From Phaeotremella fagi (taxonomy: Eukaryota > Basidiomycota > Tremellomycetes > Tremellales > Phaeotremellaceae), in assembly GCA_001599715.1 (NCBI GenBank), contig BCHU01000005.1, positions 558,001-622,000 of the forward strand: DNA of 64,000 bases. Direction: 5' to 3'. Numbering within the stretch: position 1 is the stretch's first letter; each line of letters opens with the position of its first letter. The notes beneath the pieces were generated by a model, which was not told the origin of the DNA, searched no databases, and saw only the letters and a list, made by a program, of their open reading frames with translations. The position numbers and the translations under genes were made by a program. Below are positions 37,049 to 57,731 of this stretch, in pieces.

Positions 37049-38638
37049 ATGCTATCATCAGAGATCAATCCCCTGGTTGAAGTGAGTTGACAGGTCTTGA
37101 TAAGAAGCTGACACTATCAGAGTTGGATCGCGACTGCGGATGGAAGAAGATTTAGTAAGTTGAATGATCCCTTTGAGACTCGTTTAGTGATTTTGACATT
37201 CGTTTTTTTTAAGTTGAACATAGTATCGAGTATAAGGGAGTTGATGAGGAAGGTTATCCTGTTGTTGAATGTTGGTTGGAATGCGAAGAGGGGACGGTGG
37301 GTGTTTGCTTTTGATAATTTTTCAGTTCAATTGGTAAACTTGAATCAGAATTTTGTCATTCAATCGAAGAGACTCACCAAACGTCGATACCCTCCAGGAA
37401 TTCAGATGAGATTCCGCTTTGATAATTCAGTAGAAGTCAGACGAGCGTGGACGAAAGAAGATTCAACTCAACCACTCCGTACTGTTTCAGAGCAACGTGG
37501 TAATGAAGTTTTTTCCTGTCCCTTGAGATTTCAACCATTGGTAAGTTTGAATACATCAATAAACAACGGGGGTTTAACCATTGATGCTGAGTGCCGATAG
37601 ACTCAAGAGGACATTACCGAAAATGGAGTAAAAGATGCAAACTTTGGGACCATCTCTTTGTGTTTGACTGAAGGTAAATATAAGAAGAGTGGGGTTTCTA
37701 TCAAAAGTGAGATGAATGAGAGAAAGAATGAGAAGAAGTCAGAGACATTGTTAAAGCAAGTAATATTTGATTTTGGTCACTTGCACTGATCTGAGACAAC
37801 ACAGGATTGGTTCCACCGTTCAGTAAGTCAGTCATTAATTACTTTCCTGCAGAGTGTCTGACTGATTATATGATGATCTGTAGTTTGGGAGAGGGGATTC
37901 TCCGAACTCCTAATCAATCGTTCCAATTCACGGAGGCTAATTCCAACAGTGAGGTCTGTCGTTTCGTTTGGAAAGTGAGTCCAGTCGATACTGGTAAAGT
38001 CATCGACTCATTCAATACTGTTTATAGTATCGTACTAGAGAAAAACTCATGGCGCTTAATATCATCCGTACGATATTGATGCAATGTGTTCAGACTAAAC
38101 TAGTTCTAATAGCCCGTACTGAGGAATACGACCGACTCATACAATCGCAACGCTCTCGAAATCGAAACCCCACTAGCCATGCTGATTCAAGTGAAGACGA
38201 TGACGATGAAGTTGATGATGGTGAAGATGTTAAACTGATTGAAAAATCTAACATTTCCGAAAATGAAGAAGAGGAATCATCACCAGACGAAGAAGAAGAA
38301 GATCTAGAAAAACAAAAGAAAGCTGTCGAAGAGGAAATCAGGACCCAAGCTAGATTGGAAGAATTGAGAAAAGAAGCCCTGGAGATGGAGGTGAGTCAGC
38401 TTCCTCTTGATGGTGTGAGGTTGTTAATTGAATTCTACAGAACCGATTAGCCGATCAAAAGGAAAAACGAAAGGCCGAAGACGAAAACCGAAGAAATAAG
38501 AAAATCAAGAAATCTGGGAAATTCGGGAGATCAATCAAGAATCCTGTTGATTTGACTATTTCAGATGATGAGGAGGCTGGAGGTAATGGTGTCGCGGGAC
38601 CTGGACCTAGAACTATGGTTAAGAAGGAGTTGATGTAG
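37049..38638 (+). CDS. Array paralogue 1 of 10 (DUF7918-like, SIM/SUMO-tail)
   Basis: 373 aa in ten exons: 37049-37081, 37121-37154, 37214-37296, 37349-37540, 37601-37755, 37805-37822, 37884-37974, 38028-38067, 38113-38390 and 38441-38638. Function is unknown. Residues 1-215 form the shared domain (ESWIATADGRRF, ECWLECEEGT, NFGTISLCL, EVCRFVWK). An acidic linker with SSEDDDDEVDDG and a Glu/Lys-rich coiled-coil-like stretch follow. The tail reads NPVDLTISDDE, then GPGPRTMVKKEL: a VDLT-type SUMO-interaction motif with acidic flank, then a psi-K-x-E acceptor. Intron 5 starts with GC (37756, gcaagt) instead of GT. It begins only 165 bp after the HTS1 stop codon, so it marks the left edge of the array. 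The ATG at 37049 gives the N terminus MLSSE shared with copy 2. Confidence 0.87.
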
Positions 38639-38716
38639 ATGCATGTACGACTGATGAAGTGTATGTACTGTGCGTTGTACTGTAGTTTTCAGTCTGGATT
38701 TGTGGCCCGAGCGCGA

Positions 38717-38726
38717 GTGTTTCAAG
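38717..38726 (+). promoter_or_regulatory. Shared upstream motif GTGTTTCAAG (before copy 2)
   Basis: GTGTTTCAAG lies 87 bp before the copy 2 ATG, preceded by GGCCCGAGCG. The same decamer recurs before copies 3 and 4 and in degenerate form before copy 5 at similar distances, which suggests a duplicated promoter or upstream-terminator element. Its role is inferred from position only. Confidence 0.5.
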
Positions 38727-38803
38727 CCAAAGTGGCCATTTAATAATTTAGGCATGTTCGCATTTCTACTTCCATTTTAACAATCTGATTCATTCATGGT
38801 ACG

Positions 38804-40314
38804 ATGTTATCATCAGATATGAATCCCCTAGTCGAGGTAGGTGAAGATGTTTATCTACCTCCTGAACAAATGTTAAACTTGAATTATAGGGTTGGATCTC
38901 TACGGTTGATGGAAGAAGGTTTAGTGAGTAAATCTGAACTCATCGAAGAAAGTTTTCTAAGTCGTCGTCAACCTCAGTGGAACACGATATCAAATACACC
39001 GGGGTCGATGAAGACGGTTATCCTGTGGTTGAAAGTTGGCTTGAATGTGAAGAGGGGATGGTGAGTATTTGCTCGACTAAACTTATTGAGTTGAAACGCA
39101 GACATTCGTCATCATGTTGAAGAGAATCACCACTCCACGACATCGTCGAGCAATGTTGATATATTTCCAACTTGACGATTGTGAAAAGATTGGCCGAGCT
39201 TGGATGGAAACTGAACAGCTGATCTCTTGCGGTGAGGTATATCAACAACTTGATGGTCATACCTCCACCAGTCAAATGAAATTCGTTCCCTTGGTAAGTT
39301 CTCTAGATTAGTTGTCAATGCTGACTGAATTGGTAGTCGACAGATGATATTGATGTTTCGGATTCGATGATTTCCAAAAATGGAACTATAAGTTTAACTT
39401 TGATGCCGGGAAAATATCAGAAGGAGGGATCTCAGAGCACGAATGATCTGCAACCCATGGTTGGGAAGGTGTCGGAAACGGCTATCAAGTGAGTGACAGA
39501 TTGTTTTCGGTTGCATTGAGCTAAATTTTGGACTAGACAAGGATCTACTATCAAGTACGTTGTGTGCATATCAGGTGTCTGATCGCATACGTATGTAGAT
39601 TCGAGAAGAGCAATCTCAGCGATCCTGTTCAGAATTATACGTTTACTCAGTTAGATCATGATAACAAGATCTGTCGTTTTGTTTGGAAGGTGAGAAGGAA
39701 GCGGAAATTTTTTTACATTTGAGATCGAATTAATTCTGAGAATAGTACCGCACAAGAGAGAAACTCATGCTCCTCAATATCATACGTAAGATGCGGAACG
39801 TATTCTGATCAAGATACTAAAATGATTTTAGCTCAAACCGATGATTTCCTTCGTTCATTGGGTCAACGCAAACGAAAAGAGATCTTAACCAAAGCTAAGA
39901 AGAGTACTGAAGATGGAGAGGATAACTTCGAGATAATTGATAACCCCAAAGAGGACGACTCCTCGGACGAAGAGGAAGATCTGGAACATCAGGAAAAGAT
40001 AATTGAAGAGGAAGCAAAGAAGGAAGCTGAATGGGAAGAATGTTTGAAACGAGCCGAATCGATAAAGGTGATCTAAACACTTTTCTGATTGGTAGAACCT
40101 TTCGCTGACAGTAGTTGTTTGTTACAAGACTGAATTGGACGAAGGAAAGGAAAAAAGAAAATTGGAAGACGAACGCCGAGAAACCAAGAAACGCCTGAAA
40201 CCTGGGAAATCTATCAAATATGCTATTGATTTGACTGATTTAGATGATGACGATGGATACGAGGTTGCTGGTCCTGGACCTACAACGATGATGATCAAGC
40301 AGGAGAAAGAATAG
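38804..40314 (+). CDS. Array paralogue 2 of 10 (DUF7918-like, SIM/SUMO-tail)
   Basis: 354 aa in ten exons: 38804-38836, 38890-38923, 38978-39060, 39102-39293, 39337-39488, 39537-39554, 39599-39689, 39746-39785, 39832-40067 and 40129-40314. It is closest in plan to copy 1 but has ESWLECEEG, so the first conserved Cys of that block is Ser. The exon-4 segment is more basic (MLKRITTPRHRRAML). The linker holds NFEIIDNPKEDD, a second SIM-like hydrophobic-acidic patch, followed by SSDEEEDLE. The tail has YAIDLTDLDDDD and then MIKQEKE, keeping both the SIM-like and acceptor-like motifs though the sequence between them has diverged. All introns are GT-AG. Confidence 0.87.
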
Positions 40315-40379
40315 ATGCATATATGTACTGTACGTGTACTGTCAAAACGTGATTCTGCTCTATATGGCCAGTGCGCCAT

Positions 40380-40389
40380 GTGTTTCAAG
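40380..40389 (+). promoter_or_regulatory. Shared upstream motif GTGTTTCAAG (before copy 3)
   Basis: An exact copy of the decamer seen before copies 2 and 4, here 114 bp before the copy 3 ATG. Confidence 0.5.
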
Positions 40390-40493
40390 TCAAGTACTAG
40401 TCAAATAGAAACGACACGGGCTTGAAAGCTATTTTAAATCTTGTCATCTTCCATCATTTACTTTTCCTTATCAGCAAATTAACACACTGCAAC

Positions 40494-42083
40494 ATGTTAT
40501 CTACACCAACTGAACCTCTCATTGAGGTCAGTACATCATAAAAATCAATATCGCCTCTGCCAAGTCCAAAAGAAGTGAGACTGACAAAGCTGTAGTGCTG
40601 GATTGCGACCCCTGATGGGAAACGATTCAGTGAGTTGATTATTTGTTTGATGGATGAAAAATGGATGATTTGATTAACTCATAACACCTAGATGAGCATC
40701 AAATTGAGTACAAGGGCACTGATGAAAACGGTTATCCCGTCATAGAGTGTTGGCTTGAATGCGAGAATGGTGTCGTGAGTGTACATCCATGGTCGGTGAT
40801 GATGACGTGCGACTCATTGTTTCCGTTAGAACTTCGTTATCAATTCTAAGCGAAATGATCTCCATCGTATCCAGTACGATATTCAGCAAAAGATTTGTTT
40901 AGATGCCTATGTCAATTACAGGGCTTGGATGAGGGATTTGTTAACGCCAAAACAAGTCAGAGTTGCTGTAGAAAAGCGCGGTGATCAGATTTTTGTTTGT
41001 CCTTTGAGATTCGCTGTCCTCGTGAGTATATCTATCTCGCAAAAGCTTGGGAGTCTTTACAGATGTATTTCAGACCAACAATGATGTCGATGAGAGTGTT
41101 CTGTGTGACGAAAGGCAGGGAAAGATTTCTATGATTCTCAACTGTGGATATTACGAAAAGGGTCGTATTGGACTTGAGGAGGATTTGCTCTCTCGAGATG
41201 AGAAAAAATCGGAGAAAACAATGAAGTAAGGATGGTTATCAGTGTGACTAAGTGAGAAATATGAACTCATTTCGAGAAAGGATGGGCTCGACTATCAAGT
41301 GAGTTCGTCACGGTCACACAGGGGTACCTAAAATTGATGATGTCTTCATTTAATGCATTATAGATTCGAAGCTGGAGATCCGGCTGAACCTAAGCAGCTA
41401 TATCAATTCACTCCCAAAAAAGACTCCAAACAGCTCTTTCATTTCATCTGGAAGGTATGTTACAGTATATTCCTAACCCTCAGTAATAACAAAAACTGAG
41501 CATTATTGCAGTATCGCACCCGTGAAAAGCTTCAAATGTTAGGTATTATACGTGTGTCGGTGAAAATAGGAAGTAGAAACAACGCTGACTAAAAGACATT
41601 AGCCTATGAAGATGACGAGACGGAAGGGACTTCGACTGCTAACATAGGTCAAAAGAAACCCTCCACAACCAAAGCCAGTTTCCTAGTGGAGGCCGACGAT
41701 GATGATTCGTTCGAGATAGTTGATGAACCACCTCCTGTCTTCAATCAACCTGTTGTCATTGTCGAAGAGGCTGATGGAGATGTTGAAGAAGGGGATACGG
41801 GTGCAGACGAAGAGGAACTGGAAAGAATGGAGAGAATTGCTGCCTTGAAAAAAGAGACGGCTGAGCTTGAGGTATGTTGCTTTCGAGTGATCATTAACAG
41901 GTTTCGATAAATGATGTTTCTGATGGTTGACAGGCGGAACTCGCGGCAGGGCAGCTCGAGAAAATCAAGAGAAAGTTAGAAGAGACTCGGGCAAAGGCGA
42001 AACGAGCCAAACCTAATTCAATTGAAGGCGCTGCAGGACCAGGACCAAGAACTATGGCGATCAAGAAAGAAAAGGAAAAGTAG
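40494..42083 (+). CDS. Array paralogue 3 of 10 (DUF7918-like; VDLT tail motif absent)
   Basis: 353 aa in ten exons: 40494-40526, 40596-40629, 40692-40774, 40830-41021, 41074-41225, 41281-41298, 41364-41454, 41512-41551, 41603-41871 and 41934-42083. N-terminal landmarks are CWIATPDGKRF, ECWLECENG, NFVINSKR, FVCPLRFAVL, GKISMIL and FHFIWK. The linker has SFEIVDEPPP and PVVIVEEADGD, both SIM-like. The last exon is short: the tail goes straight from basic KAKRAKPNS to AGPGPRTMAIKKEKEK, so the VDLT box of copies 1, 2 and 5-10 is missing while the psi-K-x-E consensus (IKKE) is kept. The deletion is in frame, so the gene looks functional. Confidence 0.87.
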
Positions 42084-42200
42084 GGTTCGATGGTGATGGT
42101 CATTTAGAGAAGGATTTACTTTTGTTAGAATTTTTTCAGAGTAGATATAGTTTCCCATGACTTTGTAGTTAAATTCCGATGTAGAAATCTGATTGGGCGA

Positions 42201-42210
42201 GTGTTTCAAG
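42201..42210 (+). promoter_or_regulatory. Shared upstream motif GTGTTTCAAG (before copy 4)
   Basis: An exact copy of the decamer, 94 bp before the copy 4 ATG and preceded by GGGCGA as a weaker version of the flank before copy 2. Confidence 0.5.
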
Positions 42211-42294
42211 CGATCAAAGTGTTCAAGTGGCAATAATTGTTCCGCTGTGCTTCTAAACATTTTGTCGTTTTACTTTCACTTTAACATTTGTGCA

Positions 42295-43812
42295 ATGTTC
42301 TCGTCTGAGAATAACCCTCTGATTGAGTTAAGTAGCTTATCTGGTACACATCAATGATACAGCTAACAACGGTGTAGTGCTGGATTGCCACCAGTGATGG
42401 GAGAAGATTCAGTGAGTGGCTTACGTTATCGCGTAATAAGTCATCATTTTGACTAACGCTCGGTGATCAGAGGAACATGCGACTAGGTATCAGGGAATTG
42501 ATGGCGAAGGATATCCTGTTGTTGAGTGTTGGCTGGAATGCGAGGAGAATGTCGTAAGTAAACTAACTTGTATTGTTCAAAAAACTGCTGATTCCTTCTT
42601 TCAGAAATTTGAGATACATCTGAGTACGATCAACCAATCTCCTATGCGCCATGATATCGAGCAGAAACTGCGATTAGATAATCAGAATTATGTTTCAATG
42701 GCTTGGCTGAAAGATCGAAACTCAATCAAGTGGACAGATATCAACAAGAAACGTTATGGAGGATATTTTCAATGTCCTCTCAGTTTTGCAACCCTCGTGA
42801 GTTCACCTGACGAGAATTCACTGAGCAACCCTGGGGAGTCGAATGAAGATGTGAGTGAGGTAGGATCTGAAGATGCGAGGATTGGAAAGATCTCTTTGAT
42901 CCTTACCTGGGGAACTTGGAGTGAGGCAACGGTTGATGTGAATACACAACACTTGATCGCGCCGAAGGCAAAGAGATCAGAGAAGAAAATGAAGTAGGTG
43001 AACATTTTGTGGCTGATGAGGATCTTGGAAACTCATTTGCTATAAGGTTGAGCTCGAAGGTCAAGTGAGTGTTTCAGCAATCGTTTTCAATATCAAACTA
43101 ACTGGTATTCCACTTTACTGACGGTATTGAAGATTAGGTTACGGAATACCAGCTAAGGCTGTACAACTGTATTCTTTCACACCTAAGGACGGTTCCAGAA
43201 AGGTCTGTCGCTTTGTTTGGAAAGTAAGTTGGGTGTGACAATCAACGAAAACAGCGGTTTGACCTTCACAGTACCGTACTCGAGAAAAACTCCGGATCCT
43301 AGGTGTCCTCAGTAAGGTAACGTTGAAAATAGTGAGCTAAAATCTCCTTAGGGACTGCCACTATCTATGCAAAGAGACGTCCGAGGAAGAATTCCAGCCC
43401 CTTGAGCGATGACCAAGAAGAAGATGAGAGTGACGAAGACGATTTTGAAATAATCGAAAAACCTCCTATAACCCATCAAGGAGCCATAGTCATCGTAGAG
43501 GATTCTGAGAATGAGTCTGAAGAAGACGAGGATGCTGATGTGGAAGAACTTGAGAAACTGGAGAGAGTTGCCATGCTGAGAAAGGAGGCTGCTGAATTAG
43601 AGGTAAGCATTCAATCGCTCCCGAAAATCATATCATAATTCTGCACCTTTCCTGACGATAAAACATAGGCAGAACTTGCGATCACTAGAATTAAAAGCAT
43701 CAAGAAGAAACTAGACGAAGTGCGAGAAGATGGGAGAAAGAGATCGAGATTTAGTTCTTTCGTTGAGGGTGTTGGGAGTCCGGGACCACAAACGAAGAAG
43801 AGAAAGATGTAA
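42295..43812 (+). CDS. Array paralogue 4 of 10 (first-intron donor lost; possibly defective)
   Basis: The exons inferred by comparison are 42295-42327, 42378-42411, 42471-42553, 42605-42796, 42839-42993, 43047-43064, 43133-43223, 43272-43311, 43352-43602 and 43669-43812 (346 aa if joined this way). After MFSSENNPLIE, where every other copy has GT, this one reads TTAAGT at 42328. The alternative GTTAAG one base earlier would shift the frame. Everything downstream is intact (CWIATSDGRRF, ECWLECEEN, GKISLIL, CRFVWK). The linker has DFEIIEKPP and AIVIVEDSENESEED. The tail ends SPGPQTKKRKM, with neither VDLT nor psi-K-x-E. It may be a young pseudogene, use another start or splice site, or reflect a base error. 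Confidence 0.7.
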
Positions 43813-43955
43813 GGTGGGGAAGAATGTTAGGAAGACGAGGTGTATCGAGTACATTGATGAATACAAGTATGCAGTTCCATGCCTGTAGCTGAAGGTCCGA
43901 GTACTCGTACTGCATTGGACTGAGTTTGCCACATACTAGCTTTTTGCCGATCAAA

Positions 43956-43965
43956 GTGTTTCAGC
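43956..43965 (+). promoter_or_regulatory. Degenerate upstream motif (before copy 5)
   Basis: GTGTTTCAGC, a one- or two-base variant of the decamer before copies 2-4, 90 bp before the copy 5 ATG. Confidence 0.4.
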
Positions 43966-44045
43966 TTTGAACAACGAGTAAACAACTTTGATAATCAACA
44001 TATTCCCTTTTGATCTTCTGTTTCTGCATTCATACGGCTTATTAC

Positions 44046-45543
44046 ATGTTCTCAGCTGAGAGAGAGTCTGATTTAGAGGTTAGTGGAATTCTAAGTGTTG
44101 ATATAATACCAATTGGCTAATACGAGTTTCAGAGTTGGGTTGAAACTACTGATGGAAGAAGATTCGGTATAATCAAACTCTGATGAACTGATCTGCAAAA
44201 TGAATACTGATGAAACTCATTCAGTTGAACATCAAATTGAATATAACGGGGTCGATGAGGATGGCTACAAAGTGATTGAATGCTGGTTAGAATGCGAAGA
44301 GGGTATAGTGAGTGCTTCTGAGGATTTCTGCCGAGTTCAATTGATGGAAGATCTGATTCATGTGATAGGGTTTTGTTATCAAGTCAAGAAAGCCTTCGAC
44401 GGATAAACGAAACCTGCAAGGCCTCCAGGGGAAGCTCAGAGTTGATGGGAGTGATCCTTTCAGAGGATATCCCTGGTTTTCGTACGAAGAAACAGCTTCC
44501 TATACATCAATTCCACAAGAGCGTGATGGAATCATCATGGATTGCTCTCTCTTATTTGCTCCCATAGTGAGGAACAGTGGTGAAAGTTTTGCTGATCATG
44601 CTTCTTATAGCCCCAAGAAGACCTTTCCGAAGATGGCTCAACAAGTTCTGCTCTCGGAAACATATCGCTCACACTGAGAAATGGTACTTATGAAAAAGTC
44701 GATATGCCTTTTGATCCATATTCTGTGAACCTTCGAAAGGGTAAGAAATCGGAAAAGATGATGAAGTAAGTAGACTGAGATAATAAAGTTATTGATATCT
44801 TTCAGGTTTTGCTCGACGATCAAGTAAGTTAGATCTCCCAAATGATGAGGGTGTAGCCAATTGCTATTGAAGTACGGGAAATGGCACCCCTGCTGCCTCT
44901 CATCCATATTCTTATACGTTTCACCCAGCGAAAATCAATAGTAACCTATGTCGTTTTGTTTGGAAGGTAAGTAGTTAGGGCATACAAGAAGAAAAAGCTT
45001 ATCTACTTAGTATCGTACTCGTGACAAGCTCATGGCTCTCGGTATCATTCGTGAGTTGACCTTCAGTGCATTAACCCCAGCTTATCCTATTGCAGCACGT
45101 TCGGACGCCGAAGTAGCACCTCCTCGAGCCGATCCGACAGATGGTGTTGATGATGACAACGAAGACGATATCGAGATAATCGACCAGAAACCGGAAATTG
45201 ATGTCGTTAGTTCCGATGAAGAAGAGGACGTCGATGAGGAAGTTGATGAAGAAGAGCAAGAGACGTTGAAGAGAGTTGAGGAGCTCGAAAGAGAAACTGC
45301 TGCAGCTAAGGTACGCTACTTACAGGAGCCGTCTCGATTCTGATACCTAAATAGGCCATTCTTGCAGCTAAACGAGAAAGAAGGGAATCCGGTAATCGTC
45401 AAAGAAGTGCGAAAAGATTCAAGAAGGGTAGAACATCATGGAATCCAGTTGATTTGACTGTTTCAGACGACGAGAACATGGTTGGCGTTGCTGGACCTGG
45501 ACCAGGAACAAGAAGTCACATCAAGACGGAGAATTGTAATTAG
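44046..45543 (+). CDS. Array paralogue 5 of 10 (DUF7918-like, SIM/SUMO-tail)
   Basis: 352 aa in ten exons: 44046-44078, 44133-44166, 44225-44307, 44369-44566, 44611-44765, 44806-44823, 44873-44966, 45011-45050, 45096-45310 and 45355-45543. The first exon is the most divergent of copies 1-6 (MFSAERESDLE). The domain retains SWVETTDGRRF, ECWLECEEGI, GFVIKSRK, NISLTLRNGTYEK, KFCSTIK and CRFVWK. The linker carries DIEIIDQKPEIDVVSSDEEED, shown here in parts: IEIIDQ and IDVVSSDEEE are both SIM-like. The tail is WNPVDLTVSDDEN followed by GPGPGTRSHIKTEN. Exons 4 and 7 are two and one codons longer than in copies 1-4. Confidence 0.86.
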
Positions 45544-45853
45544 GTCAACTCCTTTGAGATCGATTTAGTGTTGTATGCTGAGAAGAACTATGAATGTAAC
45601 CACAGTATCGAGTAAGACTGTGTTGTTCTGAGAGGATCACTTCTTATCTATCCCGCCCCTTTAAATTATACGGCTTGTTAAGGTTGAGATCACATGAAAA
45701 GAGCATTTGAAGATACCGTACCGATATTTGATGTTTCTATGTTGTGCGATGGCCCGAGCGTCGTCAATGAAGTAAAATAGAGTAGATTTTGACATGAAAC
45801 AAATACAATTCCATCTGCAACTTTTGACAAACTAGACAACGAAGGAGATTACA
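45544..45853. other. Intergenic spacer between array copies 5 and 6
   Basis: No gene is seen. The block GGCCCGAGCG at about 45,751 also occurs before copy 2 next to GTGTTTCAAG; here the decamer itself is not recognisable. Confidence 0.5.
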
Positions 45854-47380
45854 ATGTTCTCTTCTGAACATAACCCATTACTCGAAGTAGGTTTGACTGC
45901 TGGTTACTACCTCGTACTGAAGCATTCATTAAGTCTTGGATTGAAACCTCGGACGGAAGGAGATTCAGTAGGTCCTTTGAACTTCAATTTGCCTTTCAAT
46001 TGGTATCCTTACAGTGTCTTCCTCAGACGAACATCAAATCGAATGCAAAGGTATTGCTGAAGATGGGTTCCCAATTGTAGAATGCTGGCTTGAGTGTGAA
46101 GAAGGTGTTGTAAGTACAATCATCTGTTTGCGTTGACTTTACTCACATCAAGTCTTAGAATTTTGTCGTTGTCACGAAGAAGATCCCCCCTTACGACCAG
46201 CAAAATCGAGATATCCAATATTTCTATCGCTTGAATGGGGATTCTGCTTCCTTTCCATGGTTGAAACCGGGACACGCAGAATATCCAGGAAAAGCACCAT
46301 TTCATCTCCATCAAGTACTAGAAGAGCGAGACGGGGAGCGGGTGTATTCTCGATTGAAATTTGGATCATTAGTGAGTGAACCCGTAACGTCGTCTTTTTC
46401 AAAAGTAAAAAAAAAAACAAGAAAAATCAGGAAGCTAACAGGATCCAGTCACAGGAGGAAGTCAGCGAAGCAGGAAAAGATAATCCCCATCACGGGACAA
46501 TCTCTATCATACTGCGTCAAGGAAAATATTGTGAGAGCGGTTTTGGTATGGGCACGGGGCTTGTCGTAAACAAAGAGAAGTTGTCTGAAAGAAAGTTGAA
46601 GTGAGTCAGACCTTTTGCATGCTATTGAACACGTTAGCTCAAGTTTGATCAGGATACAATCAACTATCAAGTGAGTGCAGTAGTGTATTCTGTAGGTTCA
46701 AGATCATGGTTGACAATCTCCGTCTTTAGATTGGATGACGCTCAACCCGCTACCCCTAAACGAAGTTTTACGTTTGCTCCGGGAAATCTTCCAAACGATA
46801 AACTGTGCCATTTCAGGTGGAAGGTATGTAGATAGAAGATATGACGAAAATTAACCAACGCCTCCTAGTATCGAAGTAAAGATATGCTCGTTTTGGCCGG
46901 TATCATAAGTAAGTCCAGCAAAACACTTGAAGAACTAACCTCAATCTCTCAGCTGAAGAACCAAAACAGGAAAGGAAAAGAGAGAAGAGTGAGGATGATT
47001 TCAGAATCATCGACAAAAAGCCAGTTATCCAAGGTGTGATTGTCATTGATTCTGACGACGAGAATGAAGATGATGAAGAAGCAGATGTCAATGTAAAAGA
47101 AGCTCGAAAGAAATTGAAGGAAGCTAAGAAAGCTGCGGCGGAGGCTGAAGTGAGTGCTGACGAAGCTCCTCTGATATTCATGACCAGCACTGACAAGAAT
47201 ACGTAGATGCGTCTTTCAGATACCAAGAGACAGAATGAAGAGAAGAGATTCAAGAAGAGGATCAACCAATTTGGGGGATCCAGTATGAATCCAGTTGATT
47301 TCACGACCTCGGATGATGAAGGGGAAGCGTCGAGCTCTGTGAGGAGGAAGAAAGCGAAGGTCGAGGATGATGCGTTATAA
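45854..47380 (+). CDS. Array paralogue 6 of 10 (DUF7918-like; double SIM-like linker)
   Basis: 345 aa in ten exons: 45854-45886, 45934-45967, 46027-46109, 46159-46371, 46449-46600, 46653-46670, 46730-46823, 46869-46908, 46953-47149 and 47207-47380. Landmarks are SWIETSDGRRF, ECWLECEEGV, NFVVVTKK, GTISIILRQGKY and LCHFRWK. Exon 4 is seven codons longer than in copies 1-4. The acceptor of exon 5 is ambiguous between 46448 and a few codons later (both in frame); an A-rich tract precedes it. The linker has DFRIIDKK and VIVIDSDDE, the strongest-looking internal SIM of the array. The tail has NPVDFTTSDDEGE and basic RRKKAKVEDD, with no good psi-K-x-E at the end. Confidence 0.84.
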
Positions 47381-47632
47381 CTTTGGTATTTATTGGAATT
47401 GTATACATTTGTATAGGTCTTTATGTAGAGTATGTTACACATGTATAGTACGATTGTGTGATAACATAATAACACCAGTGGCATGCTGTGACGTGTGCAG
47501 TACAGAATGTACTGTATATTGCTGCAATTCACGAGGTTGGAGTTCTGAGAAAGGGGCGTTGTAGTTTACTGTAACATTTCAACCTTTTAGTTATTTCTTT
47601 CGTATTCCTCAATTTCAAGCTTTTACATTACG

Positions 47633-49279
47633 ATGCCTCTGTATTCATCAGAAATGGATCCACTGGTGGAGGTATGACCTGAAGACAGGACTGGAAACGC
47701 TGACAACACATAGGCATGGATTGATACGAGTGACGGGACACTTCTTAGTAAGTTCATGACAAACCTTTCCGGTTGGATTCGTGACGTCGATAAACCCATT
47801 GTGATTACAGGAGAATACAACATTGAGTACACTCCAAGAACAAAAGATCATCCACCGCAGGTAGCATGCTGGTTGGAATGCGAGGAAGGGAAAGTAAGTT
47901 GAGTCATACCCTTAGCGTATTGAACCATTGACAAGTGATCTCCCTGGTAGGAATTCCAAATCTGTATGGAGAGAGTTGGAAAAAAGGGAGATTCAGACCT
48001 CGATGTTACTGTGCTGCTAGATGGACGTGACCTTAGCAGATACGTTTGGTTCAAGGGGTCTAAGAACTTTGAATTGGGAGGGGTAGAGGAAGAGAAAGAA
48101 GATAAGGTTTACATTCGGTCTATGACCTTTGCTCCTATCGTAAGCGTCAATCTGCCATTCATCACACTGCACGAGTACATTATTGATACTCAGTACTAAT
48201 ACTGTACCCATGTGCACCTACCGTCCCAGTATACTGACCCTCAACAGCCCACCACAGACGAAGAAGAAGACCATCCTGGGACGAACGATGATGATGAAAT
48301 TGGTCAGATCATATTGCAGCTGTGGAGAGGCTCTATAATTGAGACAGGATTACCAATGGTCGTCGCCGATGTTCCGAGTGAGGTTAATCCTGTCTCAGAG
48401 AAAAGGAAAAAGCGAGTTGGCCACTAGACGAGAACGTGTTTGATTACTGACGATGGTTTAAAACTACTACCTCAGATTGTGCTCGTCGATCAAGTAACAT
48501 ATCTTGTGTTGAGTTGATCACACAGGCTGACTCCTTCCCCGAAACACAGGCTTGGTCGTAGCAAGTTGTTCGACGCATCATCAGAGTTTAGGTATAAATT
48601 TCGAGCAAAGGAAAAGGACCCTGTTCTATGTGAATTCATATGGAATGTGAGTACCCCAGAATGTTAAGCAGACCATCTGAGACCTCATTACCAGTATCGC
48701 ACACGGGCTAAACTCATGATAGACGGAATCATTGGTAGGTGATCATAAAACTTCATTCGAGAAAATCAAAGTCCGCTCATCTGTTTTCCGTAAAAAGATG
48801 AACATGATACTGAAGTTGATGATATTGCTAGTGCAGAACGACTACCTGTTCCTGACGTCGATGACGAGGATAATGAAGAAAACGACGTCGAAATACTGGA
48901 ACAACAACCGCCTGGTAGAAGTGTCAAGTCCGATACAGAGTCAATCGACGATGACACCGAAGAAGATGGTTCGGAATCGGGAGAAGACGATATTCTAGCC
49001 CAAATGGCAGTCCTGAAAAACACCCTGGCGAATCTCGAGGCGAGTTTCTTACATTTCCTAGAAACAGTATACTGACTTGTGTTGTCACAATATATGTAGA
49101 ATAAACACAGAGAAAAGAATCAAACTAAACAGAAGAGAATCCAAGACCGACGTGAACTTAAGAAACGTCGTAGATTAGGGAGATCCATCGATAATCCTGT
49201 TGATTTGACCAATTCAGACGACGAATTTGGTCAATCAACGTTTAGAGCTAGACGTAGTAGGGTCAAAGAAGAAGATTAA
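47633..49279 (+). CDS. Array paralogue 7 of 10 (DUF7918-like, SIM/SUMO-tail)
   Basis: 361 aa in ten exons: 47633-47671, 47714-47747, 47811-47893, 47951-48139, 48248-48411, 48476-48493, 48550-48646, 48695-48734, 48798-49039 and 49100-49279. Exon 1 is 39 nt (MPLYSSEMDPLVE) as in copy 8, defining a sub-group. Landmarks: AWIDTSDGT, ACWLECEEGK, VTVLLDGRDLSRYVWF (a clear LDG strand pair of the domain), LCEFIWN. Two introns use GC donors: intron 5 (48412, gcgagt) and intron 9 (49040, gcgagt). The linker has DVEILEQQPPG. The tail has DNPVDLTNSDDEFG and RSRVKEED. Confidence 0.84.
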
Positions 49280-49523
49280 GACACAGAGTCGAGTTGAGAA
49301 GCAGTATCTGATATTATAAATCAATCGAGTATGAAATCCATGTAATAATATCGTAGCACTCTAACTTGGAAGTGGCATTTTGGAGATCCTTCTTTCTCCT
49401 GATGTTTGAGATTTTCGCCACAAATCCAAAATATACCCAAAGAAGAAACGAAACTTTCTTGTGTGTTCTTCATATTTTCTATAGAGAGATTTCTTCCATC
49501 ATTCAAGTTGAACTTACTCAACA

Positions 49524-51605
49524 ATGCCTCTGCATTCTTCAGAGAATGATCCTTTGATAGAGGTAAATTGACTGATCTTTTTGAAAGTAAACATGTAAGC
49601 TGACACAGGTGGCTAGGTCTCAATCGTAGCACTCAAAGACGGCACACCCGCGTTTAGTAAAGTCACCTTTCACTTTTATGGTTCATTATTGATTTTAACT
49701 TAGAGGAACACGGTATTGAAATCACACCACGCACTCTCGAAGATCCACGTACTGTGGAATGCTGGCTTGAATGCATAGAAGGATGGGTAAGTTATTCCAT
49801 CCACAGAAGAGTTATGATCCTTACTTCTGATTGAAAGAAATTTGGTATATGTCTCGCAAGAAATGACAAGGAGAAAGATGACAAAGATATATATGATGGT
49901 GGTTCAGATGACGATTACTCTGACCAAGAGAAATCAGACCAAAAAGTCGATGTTCCCCAAAAAAAACACGAGCCGAAAATCAAAAGCGCCTTCGATAAAA
50001 CTAAGAAACCAACACCCCAAGCCGAAAGTGTTGAAGACGATTATTATGATTCATATGAAGAGGAGTACTCAGACGATTATTCAGACGAATCTTCAGATGA
50101 ATCTGAACTAGATGAAGGAGGAAGTTATACAATCAGCTCTGGAAGATGCGATTTTGATTTCCGAATTTCTCTGTTTTTAGATGGACGAGGACCGTATGAG
50201 TTTTTGTGGGACAGAAAGGATCCAAACTTTGCAATTGACAAGTTGGAAGATGAAAGAGAAGGACAGACATATAGGTGTGGGTTAAAGTTTGCTCCTACTG
50301 TAAGTGGAGTTCTTGGACCGATTTTCTGTCGTTCGCTAAAATCTATCAAACGTTATACTGTACTGATGAAGTTCATTTACGCAGCGACAAACAGATGATG
50401 CCAACAGGGTTCAGATCTCTAGATCTCAATTGAAACACCTTGGTCAAATAAAGTTAGTGTTGGAGAAAGGAGTCATCTACGAAACCTCTTCGCAATATTT
50501 AGAAGAGGAAGAATTGGAGCGTGAGATTGGTCCACTTTTAGAAAAACATTCAAAGTAAGTATTTCGAACCCCAAGTCTTCAAGTTTCAATTCTAGTTATA
50601 TTCCGTTAATGACTATTTCTATAGATTGGGGTCAACAATCGTGTAAGACCAGCTAGAGTTGACCGATGTGACTGTGATTTTGACCTGTTGTTCAGTTTTG
50701 ATGAGGAAGAGCTTATTGAAGCCCAATCAGAATCAGGAGATCGTCAGGAATTCCAACGGAAGGGAAGATTTGGTTGCTTCATTTGGAACGTATGTCTTTT
50801 GGCAAACCCTTATTGCTATGTGCTGACAAGTATTGTCAGTATCGCAACCGAGAACGACTCATGTTAGATGGCAAACTAAGTGTGTTCAAACAATACCATA
50901 TTCAGATGAAGTCTTGACGACATTAGACAAACCCGAACCAAAACGAAAACGACGCTACATGAGAGGAGAGTCTCCTACTGAAAGCAATGGTGATGATGAA
51001 GAGGATGACCAGGACGACGACGATATAGAGTTTTTAAGGATGACGAAAGATACAGTCGATGGAGAAGCAGGACTAAAAACAGCTGGAGATGACATTGACG
51101 AGCTAAAAGAAGAAGAAGATGCTCTAGAAGAAAAGAGTAAGATACAATCGAAACTCATCATGGGGGATACTGTAAGTGACTCTCAATCTACTGTTAACTT
51201 TTAGGAAAGAATGGGGATGCATCTAATGTCAACTACTCTGGTATATACGAGATTTACTAACTACGCATTCTCTTAAGAGAACAATAAGAAATTCTAACAA
51301 TTACTACTGACCCTGAAGAAACAATGAGCTCATTCTCTAATTCTAAGCCGTATACGCCACATTACCATATTCTAACATCTACCGGTACAGTACAAACAAG
51401 GAATACACGTTTGATGACTTGTTCTATATAGGCTGCTCTCGCTACCAGCCGAAAACAAAATCGATCCAACAGAGACAGACTAGGCGGGAACAAAAGATCA
51501 AAAAAGAACGAGGACACTGAGAATGCAGTTGATTTGACAATTTCAGATGGAGAATGGGAAGTCGTCATCAAGAAAGAGGTCAAAACGAAGGATGAGCCGA
51601 TATAA
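49524..51605 (+). CDS. Array paralogue 8 of 10 (with acidic insertion inside the domain)
   Basis: 461 aa, the longest copy, in ten exons: 49524-49562, 49617-49656, 49704-49786, 49838-50299, 50385-50554, 50625-50642, 50696-50789, 50840-50879, 50906-51171 and 51432-51605. Exon 4 is 462 nt against 189-213 nt elsewhere: after KFGICLARN it inserts about 90 residues rich in Asp, Glu, Ser, Lys and Tyr (DDDYSDQEKSD, DDYYDSYEEEYSDD) before resuming at CDFDFRISLFLDGRGPYEFLW. Exon 2 is 40 rather than 34 nt. Intron 9 is about 260 nt, long for this array. The tail has NAVDLTISDGEWE directly followed by VVIKKEVK, so the SIM-like and acceptor motifs abut. Confidence 0.82.
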
Positions 51606-52056
51606 GCGAGTGATAGTAGAAATCAGAAGGAATTGCGAGAGATCATCATACATATATATATATATATTCACCACATGCAACATTTATTCTACCAATCCAT
51701 CCTGATTTCAACCATATACCTTCATGTACTATCGGAACAAGGGAAGTCCTTAAGAGAAAGAAGAAAGGTTGAGATGTCCCAGGGAAGGACTCCCACTATT
51801 TACCAGAGAGTATATTGACTTTGTTTATCTCATTATTCCAGTACACTGCACTGTAGGAAATCAACCAAAAGATTGGCGTTGGTAGTGTTTGAATAAACTG
51901 CCACATTCTCTTGAGGTGTAAGATGAAACATCATGTTTTTTCAATCAATCTTATACATTTCTCATCTTTAGATTCATTTACAAATCCAATAATAAGACTT
52001 CACTACGAGTGACAATACACAACACTTGAAGTGGCCACCCAGAAAAGAACCAATAC
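51606..52056. other. Intergenic spacer between array copies 8 and 9
   Basis: A 450-bp spacer, the largest within the array, includes an (AT)n stretch at about 51,653-51,665. No gene is seen. It separates the copy 7-8 sub-group from the copy 9-10 sub-group. Confidence 0.5.
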
Positions 52057-53691
52057 ATGTTTTCCTCTGCACTCAATCCACATCTAGAGGTAAGTTTCAA
52101 CGTACTGTATGTCCTTCGAAAATCACTCAATCATTTTTCAGGGGTGGATTGAAAATACAGACGGTGTCAGATATGGTAAGTCATCGTCTGCGTGTTTTCA
52201 TATCTCGATATGTTCATGTCGACTTGATTGGACTAATCGGCTTGTCTTTTAGAAGAATATAAAGTCTCTCATACATTTGATGATGGTTGGGATATCACTG
52301 AATCTTGGATAGCTTGTGAAGAGGGTAAAGTGAGTTTATCCGGATCAGAAAGTGTATGATGCAACTATCTTGCGCTAATCTTTCACAGGAGTTCGGCATT
52401 GGGTTCGATAGAATATCTCACCTTACTCAAACCATGGACCTCAGAAGTATTGTTAGTGTAGATGGTAGAGAGTTTTGGGGGGACATTTGGTCCCCTGATC
52501 TCACGATGAGGATCCACTCAGCTTGGGAGATCATAGGTGGAAGTCATTATAGCCGGTCCTTTAACTTTGCACCGTTGGTATGTTTGTGGTGTGAAAAATA
52601 AGTTCTAACTCCGTAGCCAAAGACGGATAAAGAGGAGCTAATTGAAATCAGAGATGAAGGTTTACACGAACTTTGCAAGATAATCGTTGAGGTCGAGATT
52701 GGGGTTGCTACGCTCCTAGAATATCAGTCGGTCTCGGATTATTCAATGAAACCAACAGTCGGTTTAATATCAGAGAAGGAATTGAAGTTAGTGTTTCGGG
52801 CTATCTCAAAGCTAACAACATCCGTCTTCAGGTTATGCTCTACGGTAACGTTAGTCGGCAGCAATATCCTGTAACGTCCTTGCTTACTGATCTGATCGTT
52901 TCGATGCTCGTTTAGATTTGGGGAGAGAAAACCCGCAGAACCAACATCCTATTACGACTTTAAACCTGGGTGTTTCTCCAAACTCCGTTTCATTTTCAAT
53001 GCAAGTATCCAGAGGGTGTCCATAATCCCCTTACTTATGTGGTCCGCATAGTATCGTACATTGGACAAGCTGATCCTGATGAAGATTGTTGGTAAGTCAG
53101 GATCCAAGACGGGGCAAAGATACTGAAAAGTCTCTCAGCGGATCCCACCCAACCCGATGGAAACAATAGAGATTATCATCCCGATGATGATTCCGAAGAC
53201 GATGATATCCATTTTGTCAAAAGAAGTGAATCCCAAAGAAAAAGTATGTTTTCAACAGATTAAATCATGAAACCAACGATCAACGGATCTAGTTTGTTCG
53301 GGTAAAGCCTCAAACAACACTCAAAAGTCAGAACCGAAGAAGAAGAGAAGATTTGCAAAAACAAATCAAGAAGACGAAGAGAAGGCTGAAAATGAAGAAG
53401 AAAAAGAAGAAGGTTCCGAAAATACCTCAAAACTAAAGAAATTCATCAGTAAAAAGCAAATAGAACTGGTAAGCACTTTGAATGTGACCCAAATATATTA
53501 AGAGTCAAAAGCTGATTTGGCATTAGCTCAAACTCGAAATCGAGGTCGCCAAAGAAGAGCTTAAAGAGCATGAAGAGAACGATAGAAAATCGAAGAAAAT
53601 GAAACCGTCAGGAAGTAGAAAGAATCCTTGTGATCTTACTGGCAATGATCCTGAACTTGAGAAGATTCGAGTCAAGAAGGAGGTCGATTGA
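52057..53691 (+). CDS. Array paralogue 9 of 10 (DUF7918-like, 11 exons)
   Basis: 358 aa in eleven exons: 52057-52089, 52142-52175, 52253-52329, 52389-52577, 52617-52786, 52832-52849, 52916-53000, 53052-53091, 53139-53243, 53308-53468 and 53527-53691. Exon 3 is 77 nt (83 in copies 1-8) and reads ESWIACEEGK in place of ECWLECEEG. The linker is split by an additional intron and contains KKKRRFAKT, an NLS-like cluster. Intron 7 has a GC donor (53001, gcaagt). The tail is KPSGSRKNPCDLTGNDPELEK (in parts: GSRKNP, CDLTGND) and RVKKEVD. It pairs clearly with copy 10. Confidence 0.84.
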
Positions 53692-54070
53692 TAGATCTGT
53701 AACGGTATAGTTGTTGAAATAGCTATTGTCCAGAATGGTATGAGTCTGTATGAGTATAGTATGAACGATTGTATGTTAGTCAAGCTACTATTATCAAAGG
53801 AAAGATCAATCAGAGTCCAAAGAAAGTCTGTCAATAAGGATATACTAGATGGAATATGCTGTAAGTACTGCACAGACTCGACATGCCACATTTTAAGCAT
53901 GGACTTATCTGAAACATCTTCTGCAGAACTGTATCCATCAAAAATAATTGCTTAATTTTAACGACCATCTTTTGTTTATATCGAGAAATCAAAATAAGTC
54001 TCATAACACTTGGATAAACATTTTCAACCCAAGGAAATAGCAAGACGACAAAGAAGAAATCTGAACGGAC
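53692..54070. other. Intergenic spacer between array copies 9 and 10
   Basis: This 379-bp spacer contains no supportable gene. An open frame at 53740-53955 (plus) has no recognisable product. Confidence 0.5.
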
Positions 54071-55679
54071 ATGTACTCCTCCGAGAACAGACCATATTTG
54101 GAGGTAAATTTCATCACAGACACTATCGATCACTGATCGCTCCATAGGGATGGATTGAAAACATAGATGGGACTAGATACGGTTTGTTCCACTGTGTTTT
54201 GAAGTACTACAGTATCACTGAATTCGATCTTGATCAGAGGATCATAAAGTATCCTACACTGATGAGGACGGTTGGAAGATCGCTGAATCCTGGATAGCGT
54301 GTGCAGAGGGTAAAGTGAGTAAGGAATTGTGATACACTATAATATACATCATTCTCACAGAGACATAATCGTCAGACATTCCGTATTCGGGTCAACAGAA
54401 TCGGTGTTAACTTCAGCGGCAACGATACCCGCCTCACTCTCATGTTGGATGGTCGACGAGCTGGAAACTTCTGCTTTCATAAAGAACAACCTTTGATCAT
54501 CCATTCAATCTCAGAGGTTACAGGTGGACGTAGATACAACCGTCCTCTGTTGTTCGCACCTTTGGTGTGTTGTTTGATTCCATTGAGAACGTAGCTAACA
54601 CCATACTGTACCTGTACAGCCAAAAACAGACAACGAGGCTTTGGTCGACATAAAACACGAAGAAGAGTTGAACAAACTTTGTAAAATAATCGTTGATGTG
54701 GAATTTGGAAAGATTTTCGATTCCTATGCTCAACCTAGAAACGTTGCGACGACACCGGCAGTTGGTTTGGTGTTAGAAACGAAGTTCAAGTGAGTGCTCA
54801 GTGTGTACAATCTACTGATAAGACATGCAGGTTGTGCTCCACAGTAATGTTGGTTTGCTTCGGAGGATTATATGGTATAGTATTTTCACTGATCATGCTG
54901 GCTTGCATAGATTTGGGGAGAGGAAACCGTCATATGGCCAAAGCTGCAGTTTTGTACCTAGCTTTCCTACTCCCGGACAATCTAAATATCGATTCATTTT
55001 CAATGTAAGTGCTTAATTTCGCGATCAATTTCTTTGTACCATATTCACTTTATCAGTATCGAACCTTAGACAAACTCATGTTTATGAACATAGTCCGTGA
55101 GTTGACTCAAGGGGTGACAGAAACAATCGAACGAAGTATAAGCTGATTCTCAGGATAGCGGATCCGAATAAACCAATTGGCGAGGAAGACAATGATACCG
55201 ATGATGATGGGCAAGATGCTATCGAATTCACAAGGCGTGACAGAGAGAAAAAAGGTTTGTCGTCAACTACTCCATCAATGCGTCTTGTCAATCAACACGT
55301 TCTGATACATTTTCAGATACGAACACTAAGATGAAGAAGACCTTAGGGAAACGGAAAAAGATTTCTCCAAAAGAAGGTGGTGAGGATTCGGAAAAAGAGA
55401 AACAAGATTCAGATGATGGAGAAGATTTAGAAGATTTCATTGAGAGAAAAGAGATGAGACTTGTGAGTGCATCCAGCTGACCAACGGAAAAGCTGATTTC
55501 CCTTTTTCTTTCAGCTACAACTTCAGATCAAGAATGCTAAGCGAAAACTCAAGGGCAAAGCAAACGATTCTTATAAATCGAAGAAACTGAAACCGTCTGG
55601 AAGTAGGAAGAACCCTGTTGATATCACTGGTGATGATCCTGAACTGGAGAAGGTTCGTGTTAAGAAGGAGATTGGTTGA
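54071..55679 (+). CDS. Array paralogue 10 of 10 (DUF7918-like, 11 exons, SIM/SUMO-tail)
   Basis: 353 aa in eleven exons: 54071-54103, 54148-54181, 54238-54314, 54376-54564, 54620-54789, 54831-54848, 54911-55004, 55057-55096, 55159-55254, 55317-55462 and 55515-55679. It has the same exon plan and ESWIAC signature as copy 9, with strong identity in GWIENxDG, TLMLDGRR, LCKIIVDVEFG, IFGERKP and YRTLDKLM. Weak donors occur: GTTTGT at 54182 and 55255, GTTGGT at 54849. The linker is basic (KKTLGKRKKISPK) then acidic (SDDGEDLED). The tail has NPVDITGDDPELE and RVKKEIG. It is the right edge of the array, 223 bp before a convergent unrelated gene. Confidence 0.85.
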
Positions 55680-55901: not shown

Positions 55902-57731
55902 CTACGATGCCATGCTCTCTTTAGGCCCATCCACTCCCAGTCCATCAATAATATCTTGCCCACCGACCCCTTCCGCGTCCCCCTCCAAAACCGCTCTCAA
56001 CCTCTTAATCCTCTTATCCTCCCTCCACCCAACCCAACCCTCCAAATTCCCCTCCCCAAATTTCCCCTCCAACCGCCGAAAAACGTTCTCAACAGCTCTA
56101 AAATCCCCATTAGTAGTTCTAGCAACTGCGATCAAGATCGTATATACCTGTCGTGGGGTTGGAGCTTGCGAATAACTAGTCGGAGTGATCAACAGGAACG
56201 GTTCCAATAATTCAATTAAATTTTCATGAGTCCATGGAGAATTTTTATCATCGTTTGAATTTTTATCCCATAACTTTGAGAAATCTCGTCCAGTCGTCGA
56301 GGTCCAGACCATGGATCTATCATCGAATCTTGGGAATTCATCTATCAACCCCCCAGATCTCACATTGGGTATGACACCGTATTTCGAGAACCCCCGGAAG
56401 AAAGATAGATAATCAGGTAAACTGGGTGAATGATCTTTGTTTATCATGTCTTGAAGTATTTTCAGGGCTGGGACGAATTTTTGATCGTATGTTAGGGATT
56501 GGATTAGGAGGGTGTAGGTTGGTCTGGTTGGTTTTAGGGTTGGATTGGTTGGGAGATTGATTTTGGGGATGTATGGTTGGGATGGGGATGGGGTTTCTGG
56601 TTTGGTTGATGAGAAGAAATTGTTTGATTGGGAGTGGTGTTGGGGTTGGGGGTCGTATAACGATTTAAGCGGTGAGGTCGTTGATGAATCTGGATTCAGT
56701 TTGTCGAAAACTGGACCGATTATTTCCCAATGTCCTTGCTTCGCGAATACCCACAAAGCATAGTTGATAAGTACCATCGCGTCGTTTTCATTGATACCAC
56801 TATCCACATCCGGGATTTCACTCGACAACCTTTCCAAAGTCTGATTCAATAGTAAAGTCATAGCAGTCAATCGATTTGATCTGACATAAATCATCATCCT
56901 AGTTAGGACAGCGTATGAATCAGGTTTTTTGAATTGACGATTACTGATGTTCCACCAATGATCGAAACGACGTTCGTTCCCAACCATAGCTGAAAGATAT
57001 AATAAGTGGTTAAGGTCTCTTCTGTAATATCGTAGTTCCCTAGTTGATTTCCCAGGTAATGTAAACTTGTAACAATCCATAAATTCATTTTCGGCGATTT
57101 TCAAATCATCCCCACTCAAACCCTCTTTCGATCCTCCGATCACCGTCATCAATCTTTTCTCAAACACCGTCTCGTCCCCAGACCCAGATCCAGACCCAGC
57201 AAGTTCAGAAAGTTCATCAGTGATAGATTTCAATCGATCTTTGATTTTATAGTTATAAGGATCTTTCTTCAAAGCGTTGAAAAATGTTCGAGAGATCGAA
57301 TGGAGTTCTTGTTGAGTGAAGACGTGGGAATTTGGGGAGGCTAGATAGAGTTGGTTATATTTTTCATTGATTTGTTCGGTGGTTTGGAAATCTGGATTGG
57401 GGAGGTCGATTAGTTGTTTGATGGAGGATAAGACTGATGATCGGTTCGTTGGTGATATTGTATGTTTACTGAGACTTGGTGGTGTGGTTAGTTTTTGGGT
57501 TGGTTCAGGTGGTTTAGGAGGTAGAGGTAGACCTGGTGGGATCCATGATAGTTCTGAAGGTAGGGTTGGAGTGTCTTCGTCCCCGAATTCATCGCTGGGT
57601 GTTAGATATTTGGTCGTTTGTGAAGACGATGACCTGATATTTATACCTAACCGAGTGATGGAGGGATGATAACAAGGTCTAAGATGTGATAAAAGACATA
57701 GATAAGTATCTAAATGGAGACGTAGAGGCAT
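55902..57731 (-). CDS. PPR-like, probable mitochondrial protein (single exon)
   Basis: 609 aa in one uninterrupted frame, unusual in this intron-rich window. The first residues (MPLRLHLDTYLCLLSHLRP, then RSSSSQTTKYL) are basic and Ser-rich with no early acidic residues apart from one Asp, compatible with a mitochondrial presequence. The body is alpha-helical with pentatricopeptide-like units, for example PTYTLLIQSLTYDQKFVPAL with ILQDMINKDHSPSLPDY, SYAVLTRMMIYVRSNRLTAM, and PRQVYTILIAVART with VENVFRRLE. I therefore call it a PPR-like organellar RNA-metabolism candidate; the specific family member is not recognised. Pro-rich stretches at residues 60-90 and about 345-385 are linkers. The end converges on array copy 10. 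Confidence 0.75.
   Translation of the reverse strand: MPLRLHLDTYLCLLSHLRPCYHPSITRLGINIRSSSSQTTKYLTPSDEFGDEDTPTLPSELSWIPPGLPLPPKPPEPTQKLTTPPSLSKHTISPTNRSSVLSSIKQLIDLPNPDFQTTEQINEKYNQLYLASPNSHVFTQQELHSISRTFFNALKKDPYNYKIKDRLKSITDELSELAGSGSGSGDETVFEKRLMTVIGGSKEGLSGDDLKIAENEFMDCYKFTLPGKSTRELRYYRRDLNHLLYLSAMVGNERRFDHWWNISNRQFKKPDSYAVLTRMMIYVRSNRLTAMTLLLNQTLERLSSEIPDVDSGINENDAMVLINYALWVFAKQGHWEIIGPVFDKLNPDSSTTSPLKSLYDPQPQHHSQSNNFFSSTKPETPSPSQPYIPKINLPTNPTLKPTRPTYTLLIQSLTYDQKFVPALKILQDMINKDHSPSLPDYLSFFRGFSKYGVIPNVRSGGLIDEFPRFDDRSMVWTSTTGRDFSKLWDKNSNDDKNSPWTHENLIELLEPFLLITPTSYSQAPTPRQVYTILIAVARTTNGDFRAVENVFRRLEGKFGEGNLEGWVGWREDKRIKRLRAVLEGDAEGVGGQDIIDGLGVDGPKESMAS

Follow-up and report, generated by a model that had tools for sequence, protein, structure and literature searches.

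Ten tandem DUF7918 genes in Phaeotremella fagi and their possible connection with SUMO

What might ten neighbouring copies of an uncharacterised gene do for the fungus that carries them? The question is raised by a 64,000-nucleotide stretch of the Phaeotremella fagi genome (assembly GCA_001599715.1, contig BCHU01000005.1, positions 558,001 to 622,000 of the forward strand), here called the window, in which positions 37049-55679 hold ten genes of the DUF7918 family, all on the + strand and arranged head-to-tail. DUF7918 (PF25534) is a domain of unknown function in Pfam. We suggest that this array, apparently old and with nine of its ten genes intact, encodes nuclear adaptors that would work through SUMO, a proposal read from the sequence to which we give an even chance of being correct. 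The argument is built on a contrast within the predicted proteins, namely that the tail following the domain has diverged among the copies while a few short islands in it, including one that resembles a SUMO-interacting motif (SIM), stand out as conserved. Published work is cited here from excerpts of the papers concerned.

Ten genes with a common exon plan

A gene-blind repeat search of the window recovered ten + strand occurrences of a single 40-nt block, with at least 62% identity to the reference copy and a spacing of 1714-2543 nt. The block is the end of an exon, encoding ..[EA][CS]W[LI].C.EG.. in most copies. All ten gene models are predictions in which the splice sites were fitted by hand to the recurring exon pattern; the starts of the fitted genes lie 1690-2533 nt apart, and nine of the ten copies form a single open frame with one terminal stop. 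The common plan consists of exons of about 33, 34, 83, 190, 155, 18, 91 and 40 nt followed by two or three tail exons. The early exons are constant in length and phase across the copies, copy 4 departing from this at exon 1. The observed lengths are 33 nt for exon 1 (39 in copies 7 and 8), 34 for exon 2 (40 in copy 8), 83 for exon 3 (77 in copies 9 and 10), 189-213 for exon 4 (462 in copy 8), 152-170 for exon 5, 18 for exon 6, 85-97 for exon 7 and 40 for exon 8. Copies 9 and 10 have one additional tail intron, and the last intron of copy 8 (260 nt) is uncertain. Exon 4 of copy 8 (49838-50299) contains a long, acidic, Asp/Ser-rich insertion that is absent from the other copies. The initial annotation had described ten same-strand, head-to-tail genes with nearly identical exon plans, all apparently intact bar one; the repeat search and the splice models bear this out, and the span it gave for the array agrees exactly with the first start and the last stop of the fitted models.

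The damaged gene is copy 4. The donor position at which exon 1 ends in the other nine copies is missing from it; splicing at the nearest GT would shift the rest out of frame, with 22 stops, and its intron 4 is read as coding, joining exons 4 and 5. The other 349 codons of the copy stay open in the phase of the family, so the lesion looks young, or an alternative start may be in use. In the nine intact genes 4 of the 83 introns are of the GC-AG type, compared with a rate of 1.009% in fungi at large (PMC7072748; binomial P = 0.010).

In a Pfam scan DUF7918 exceeds its curated cut-off of 27 bits in nine of the ten copies (28.6-55.6 bits), that is, in eight of the nine intact proteins and in copy 4 when read from exon 2 (49.2 bits), and seven of these nine matches run over nearly the entire profile of 228 positions. 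By this profile hidden Markov model check, the initial annotation was right to compare the genes with DUF7918. The remaining protein, copy 9, has no DUF7918 match at an E-value (E) of 1 or below, and the protein tree described below joins it, fully supported, to copy 10 as its sister. No other family reaches its cut-off in the Pfam scans of the ten copies. The domain comprises about 200 residues and ends in the conserved block YRTREKLM.LGII. Its exons fall into a conserved set, with mean pair identities of 0.54 (exon 2), 0.49 (exon 3), 0.60 (exon 6) and 0.56 (exon 8), and a variable set, with 0.23 (exon 4), 0.25 (exon 5) and 0.27 (exon 7). A profile search of the PDB with the domain gave no convincing relative, the one match having E 6.7. 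DUF7918 was not found by name in a search of 5.39 million open-licence papers, and the main text of a paper on Kwoniella (PMC11185503) contains no word beginning with "duf" or "tandem".

Conserved islands in a diverged tail

Past the DUF7918 domain each protein continues into a low-complexity tail of 123-158 residues, of which 25-31% are acidic and 15-26% basic, a composition that suggests disorder. The mean pair identity of the tails is 0.22, with gaps counted as mismatches. When all windows of six alignment columns in the tail were ranked by conservation without regard to any motif, NPVDLT came first (mean pair identity 0.46), a patch of K and R residues second (0.44) and an acidic-hydrophobic island third (0.43); the consensus of the third, [DE]D-x-[FIV]-E-[IF]-[IVL], also resembles a SIM. 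The NPVDLT island is followed by acidic residues (SDDE or other acid-containing letters) in eight of ten copies and is absent from copies 3 and 4, whose tails contain VVIVEEAD and IVIVEDSE, the latter an exact match to the SIMa pattern. The strict form [VI]DLT is present in five of the ten tails, the form [VIC]D[LIF]T in eight (shuffle mean 0.09; none of 5000 shuffles reaches eight), and [VI]KxE occurs within the last 15 residues of eight proteins (shuffle mean 0.21; again none of 5000 reaches eight), the island and the terminal motif occurring together in seven. A relaxed SIM rule, drawn up after the sequences had been viewed, finds a candidate in all ten copies (shuffle mean 4.0; 0 of 2000 shuffles). 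Since the copies are relatives, the islands standing out from an otherwise diverged tail are a better argument than the shuffles.

The form of these islands has precedents. VIDLT is the core of the SIM of PIAS1, and SUMO2/3 is the preferred binding partner of peptides with an (I/V)DLT core (PMC4907222). The SIMb-type motif of PIAS1 combines the VIDLT core with a C-terminal flank optimised for high affinity and makes one of the tightest contacts with SUMO, and acidic flanks matter for the binding of SIMs to SUMO (PMC3901395). The consensus of SUMO-acceptor sites is given as psi-K-x-E/D (PMC12630355) or as [IVL]KxE (PMC3395311).

A SUMO partner very probably exists in the genome, because a hand-spliced fragment of a multi-exon gene on contig C14 (775794-775390, - strand), reached via matches to PF11976 (Rad60-SLD), scores 82.5 bits against that profile (E 2e-23), compared with 54.4 bits against the ubiquitin family, and has SUMO2, within a two-unit chain, as its top PDB match. 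A query with yeast SUMO gave no match in the genome at E <= 0.01. Of three further PF11976 matches inspected by eye, one is a frame of Rad60 type and two are of ubiquitin type. Separately, an open frame on contig C13 (992964-993632) contains three ubiquitin-type units of equal score, spaced at 228 nt, with further part units in the neighbourhood; it is probably a polyubiquitin gene.

Table 1. Positions in the window of the predicted genes, the SUMO-interacting-type islands, the terminal matches to the SUMO-acceptor consensus, the GC donors and the TGAAACA sites
Feature	Position	Strand	Details
Copy 1	37049..38638	+	10 exons, 373 residues, DUF7918; intron 5 GC-AG
Copy 2	38804..40314	+	10 exons, 354 residues, DUF7918
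Copy 3	40494..42083	+	10 exons, 353 residues, DUF7918; PVVIVEEADG in tail, no C-terminal VDLT island
Copy 4	42295..43812	+	damaged; DUF7918 from exon 2; AIVIVEDSEN in tail, neither VDLT island nor terminal [VI]KxE
Copy 5	44046..45543	+	10 exons, 352 residues, DUF7918
Copy 6	45854..47380	+	10 exons, 345 residues, DUF7918; VIVIDSDDE and PVDFT in tail, no terminal [VI]KxE
Copy 7	47633..49279	+	10 exons, 361 residues, top DUF7918 score (1e-14); introns 5 and 9 GC-AG
Copy 8	49524..51605	+	10 exons, 454 residues, weak DUF7918 (28.6 bits); acidic insertion in exon 4
Copy 9	52057..53691	+	11 exons, 363 residues, no Pfam match at E <= 1; intron 7 GC-AG
Copy 10	54071..55679	+	11 exons, 358 residues, DUF7918 (32.1 bits)
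Island, copy 1	38543..38572	+	PVDLTISDDE
Island, copy 2	40222..40251	+	AIDLTDLDDD
Island, copy 5	45445..45474	+	PVDLTVSDDE
Island, copy 6	47291..47320	+	PVDFTTSDDE
Island, copy 7	49196..49225	+	PVDLTNSDDE
Island, copy 8	51525..51554	+	AVDLTISDGE
Island, copy 9	53626..53655	+	PCDLTGNDPE
Island, copy 10	55614..55643	+	PVDITGDDPE
Terminal motif, copy 1	38618..38629	+	VKKE
Terminal motif, copy 2	40294..40305	+	IKQE
Terminal motif, copy 3	42060..42071	+	IKKE
Terminal motif, copy 5	45520..45531	+	IKTE
Terminal motif, copy 7	49262..49273	+	VKEE
Terminal motif, copy 8	51567..51578	+	IKKE
Terminal motif, copy 9	53671..53682	+	VKKE
Terminal motif, copy 10	55659..55670	+	VKKE
GC donor	37756	+	copy 1 intron 5
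GC donors	48412, 49040	+	copy 7 introns 5 and 9
GC donor	53001	+	copy 9 intron 7
TGAAACA	38718, 40381, 42202, 43957, 45795, 51924, 53910	either	intergenic gaps

Age and surroundings of the array

The tree of the proteins gives the following support (ultrafast bootstrap, UFBoot, followed by the SH-like approximate likelihood ratio test, SH-aLRT): 97/93 for copies 1 and 2, 96/95 for 3 and 4, 82/87 for 1-4, 98/98 for 1-6 and 100/100 for 9 and 10; copies 7 and 8 are not recovered as a resolved pair, and the longest branch is that of copy 8. Tree neighbours are thus mostly physical neighbours, as predicted from tandem duplication, and of the three contiguous sub-groups proposed initially, 1-6 and 9-10 stand and 7-8 does not emerge as a pair.

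Synonymous sites are near saturation. In ten pairs of copies, with domain and tail taken separately, 13 of the 20 values by the Nei-Gojobori method (NG86) are defined, with ratios of nonsynonymous to synonymous divergence (dN/dS) of 0.12-0.44 and dS of 1.27-4.60, and the other seven are saturated. In five pairs of paralogues, matched introns are 74-78% identical over aligned positions, as are unmatched introns (74-78%); the matched ones are 2-4 points above the unmatched in four of the five pairs, and below them in copies 7 and 8. Because dN/dS is low, dS is close to saturation and introns are hardly more alike when matched, the duplications look old and the copies look constrained by purifying selection; the same intron comparison shows no sign of recent gene conversion. 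Selection for diversity, which the initial annotation had proposed, is not supported by the dN/dS check, with values of 0.12-0.44 where defined; given that saturation limits dN/dS, diversifying bursts in the past are possible. As a tandem family the array is ordinary.

Protein searches of the 22.6-Mb assembly at E <= 10 gave family matches inside the array only. The queries were domain pieces of copies 1, 7, 8 and 9 and a composite tail, searched exon by exon with the best candidates scored, and a very divergent member could escape such a search (the copy 9 query retrieved copies 9 and 10 only). The composite tail gave five matches at E <= 10, none of them outside the array. A match on contig C13 at 819297 (E 0.217) was rejected by eye as a member of the family, its frame being Arg/Gly-rich. 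A frame-by-frame, intron-blind search of the assembly with PF25534 gave no match, and likewise none in control genomes. No relative of the family was found in the viral contigs scanned.

Upstream of the array the initial annotation had placed a histidyl-tRNA synthetase gene, which is supported by two fragments above the Pfam cut-off; downstream, the 609-residue open reading frame (ORF) at 55902-57731 (- strand) that it called PPR-like matches no Pfam family at E <= 0.001, so this label is not confirmed. Elsewhere in the window, a 1062-residue ORF at 14103-17291 (- strand) looks, by eye, like Spt23/Mga2. The heptamer TGAAACA, on either strand, is found once each in seven of the ten intergenic gaps upstream of the copies, which makes seven occurrences in 2588 bp, against a density of 0.23 per kb over the remainder of the window (Poisson P = 3e-6, for a word chosen post hoc, and with copies 2-4 sharing the surrounding letters, probably by descent). 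With each gap cut to its final 220 bases, the top-ranking 7-mer hit six gaps in one of 100 shuffles and fewer in all the others. We treat TGAAACA as a lead only to a possible shared upstream element; it resembles the pheromone-response sequence of yeast Ste12. When 85 bases from upstream of copy 2 were searched against the assembly, the only match was to their own position.

What the predicted proteins may do

In the proposed mechanism, the DUF7918 domain would form a folded head and the tail would dock on SUMO-modified nuclear proteins via its [VI]DLT-type core, with the basic patch of the tail possibly acting as a nuclear localisation signal and the terminal [VI]KxE as a site at which the tail itself would be SUMO-modified. 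Contacts between SUMO and the motifs could then bring the copies together among themselves and with partners that carry SUMO, as in nuclear-body proteins, and the variable domain exons 4, 5 and 7 would set which partner each copy brings in. SUMO binding, SUMO conjugation, nuclear location and the choice of partners by DUF7918 are all steps that we infer from the letters of the predicted proteins. Of the roles suggested in the initial annotation, one in the nucleus is made plausible by the basic patches and the SUMO-type motifs.

Several points weigh against the mechanism. Because SIMs are short, an acidic tail matches them easily. Exact string patterns of the three types, named SIMa, SIMb and SIMr as in PMC3901395, are found in only two, three and three of the ten copies, respectively, and 158 of 5000 shuffles reach the SIMa count. 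The full consensus of the third island is matched by just five of the ten copies, terminal [VI]KxE is missing in copies 4 and 6, and psi-K-x-E anywhere in the tail occurs in eight copies where 3.7 are expected. All such counts are made over ten related copies that are not independent, and the shuffles ignore ancestry. A PDB sequence search with the tail of copy 1 found no SUMO complex and one match at E 0.75. As to the domain, whose role in binding partners is conjectural, AlphaFold2 was run on a single sequence, a contiguous 176-residue ORF that covers exons 3-5 of copy 4 and continues through intron 3, and yielded no usable structure (mean predicted local distance difference test score, pLDDT, of 35.9). 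Finally, no relatives in other species were found in three protein-database searches, made with the ten copies aligned (E <= 0.001), with copy 7 (E <= 0.01) and with eight domains aligned (E <= 0.01), with 7995, 2174 and 827 candidates, respectively; spliced fungal proteins are probably scarce in that database.

A rival explanation, which we consider possible though doubtful, is that the array is an old tandem family of an ordinary kind, made up of nuclear or chromatin proteins whose tail acts by charge, in contacts with histones or nucleic acids, and that the SUMO-like islands arise incidentally from the acidity and low complexity of the tail. The high content of both acidic and basic residues in the tails agrees with it, as do a weak Pfam match of copy 5 to YL1 nuclear protein (E 0.013, below the cut-off), the near-chance number of SIMa-type matches and the finding that about four of ten shuffled tails satisfy the relaxed rule. 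However, composition alone gives neither NPVDLT as the top conserved island nor [VI]KxE at the very end of the protein. It is also conceivable that a CtBP-like corepressor docks on the PVDLT island as a motif of the PxDLS type, in which case the proteins would be transcription co-regulators acting without SUMO. PVDLT, PCDLT and similar islands do resemble the CtBP consensus PXDLS (PMC6303947), and the proline is kept in six of the eight islands (PxD[LIF]T), yet copies 2 and 8 have Ala at that position and nevertheless keep I/V-DLT with the acidic residues, the final residue is Thr in all eight islands with no Ser form, and the same source, in the excerpt used, places CtBPs in vertebrates and arthropods; we regard this explanation as very improbable.

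A diversifying family for self/non-self recognition or defence, with the variable domain exons as the recognition region, seems to us hardly more than a slim prospect. Exons 4, 5 and 7 are indeed far more variable than exons 2, 3, 6 and 8, and such families commonly form tandem arrays, but the 13 defined dN/dS values speak against it and the Pfam scans of the copies at E <= 1 list no HET and no NACHT or NB-ARC domain.

The copies differ from the known systems that they resemble. DUF7918 as defined by PF25534 is found above the cut-off in nine of the ten copies, and their SUMO-type tail falls outside that profile. PIAS/Siz SUMO ligases have in common with them the (I/V)DLT core and the acidic residues after it, but the Pfam scans (E <= 1) list no SP-RING (zf-MIZ), SAP or PINIT domain in the copies, and equally no RING domain of the kind that marks SUMO-targeted ubiquitin ligases. 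The likeness to PML and other nuclear-body scaffolds is one of working principle only, a SIM and a SUMO-acceptor site on one protein, and no RING, B-box or other TRIM-type domain is listed. With GCNA, Wss1 and Spartan the likeness lies in SUMO-interacting islands preserved within a disordered region that otherwise changes (PMC5098910); in contrast to these, no protease or zinc-finger domain is listed for the array copies.

A wider picture, which we think unlikely as it stands, is that of a nuclear-body-like basidiomycete system in which SUMO-reading and SUMO-modified scaffolds would combine a shared tail with divergent DUF7918 faces for their clients and would be co-expressed via TGAAACA, possibly in a mating programme. 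If this is true, an uncharacterised fungal family, DUF7918, would gain a function in the SUMO pathway. The SUMO-interacting-type island together with the terminal acceptor site provides what may be the first concrete and testable hypothesis on the function of DUF7918, and the array itself offers natural variants of the island for comparison, namely PVDLT, AIDLT, AVDLT, PCDLT, PVDIT and PVDFT as well as copies in which it has been lost.

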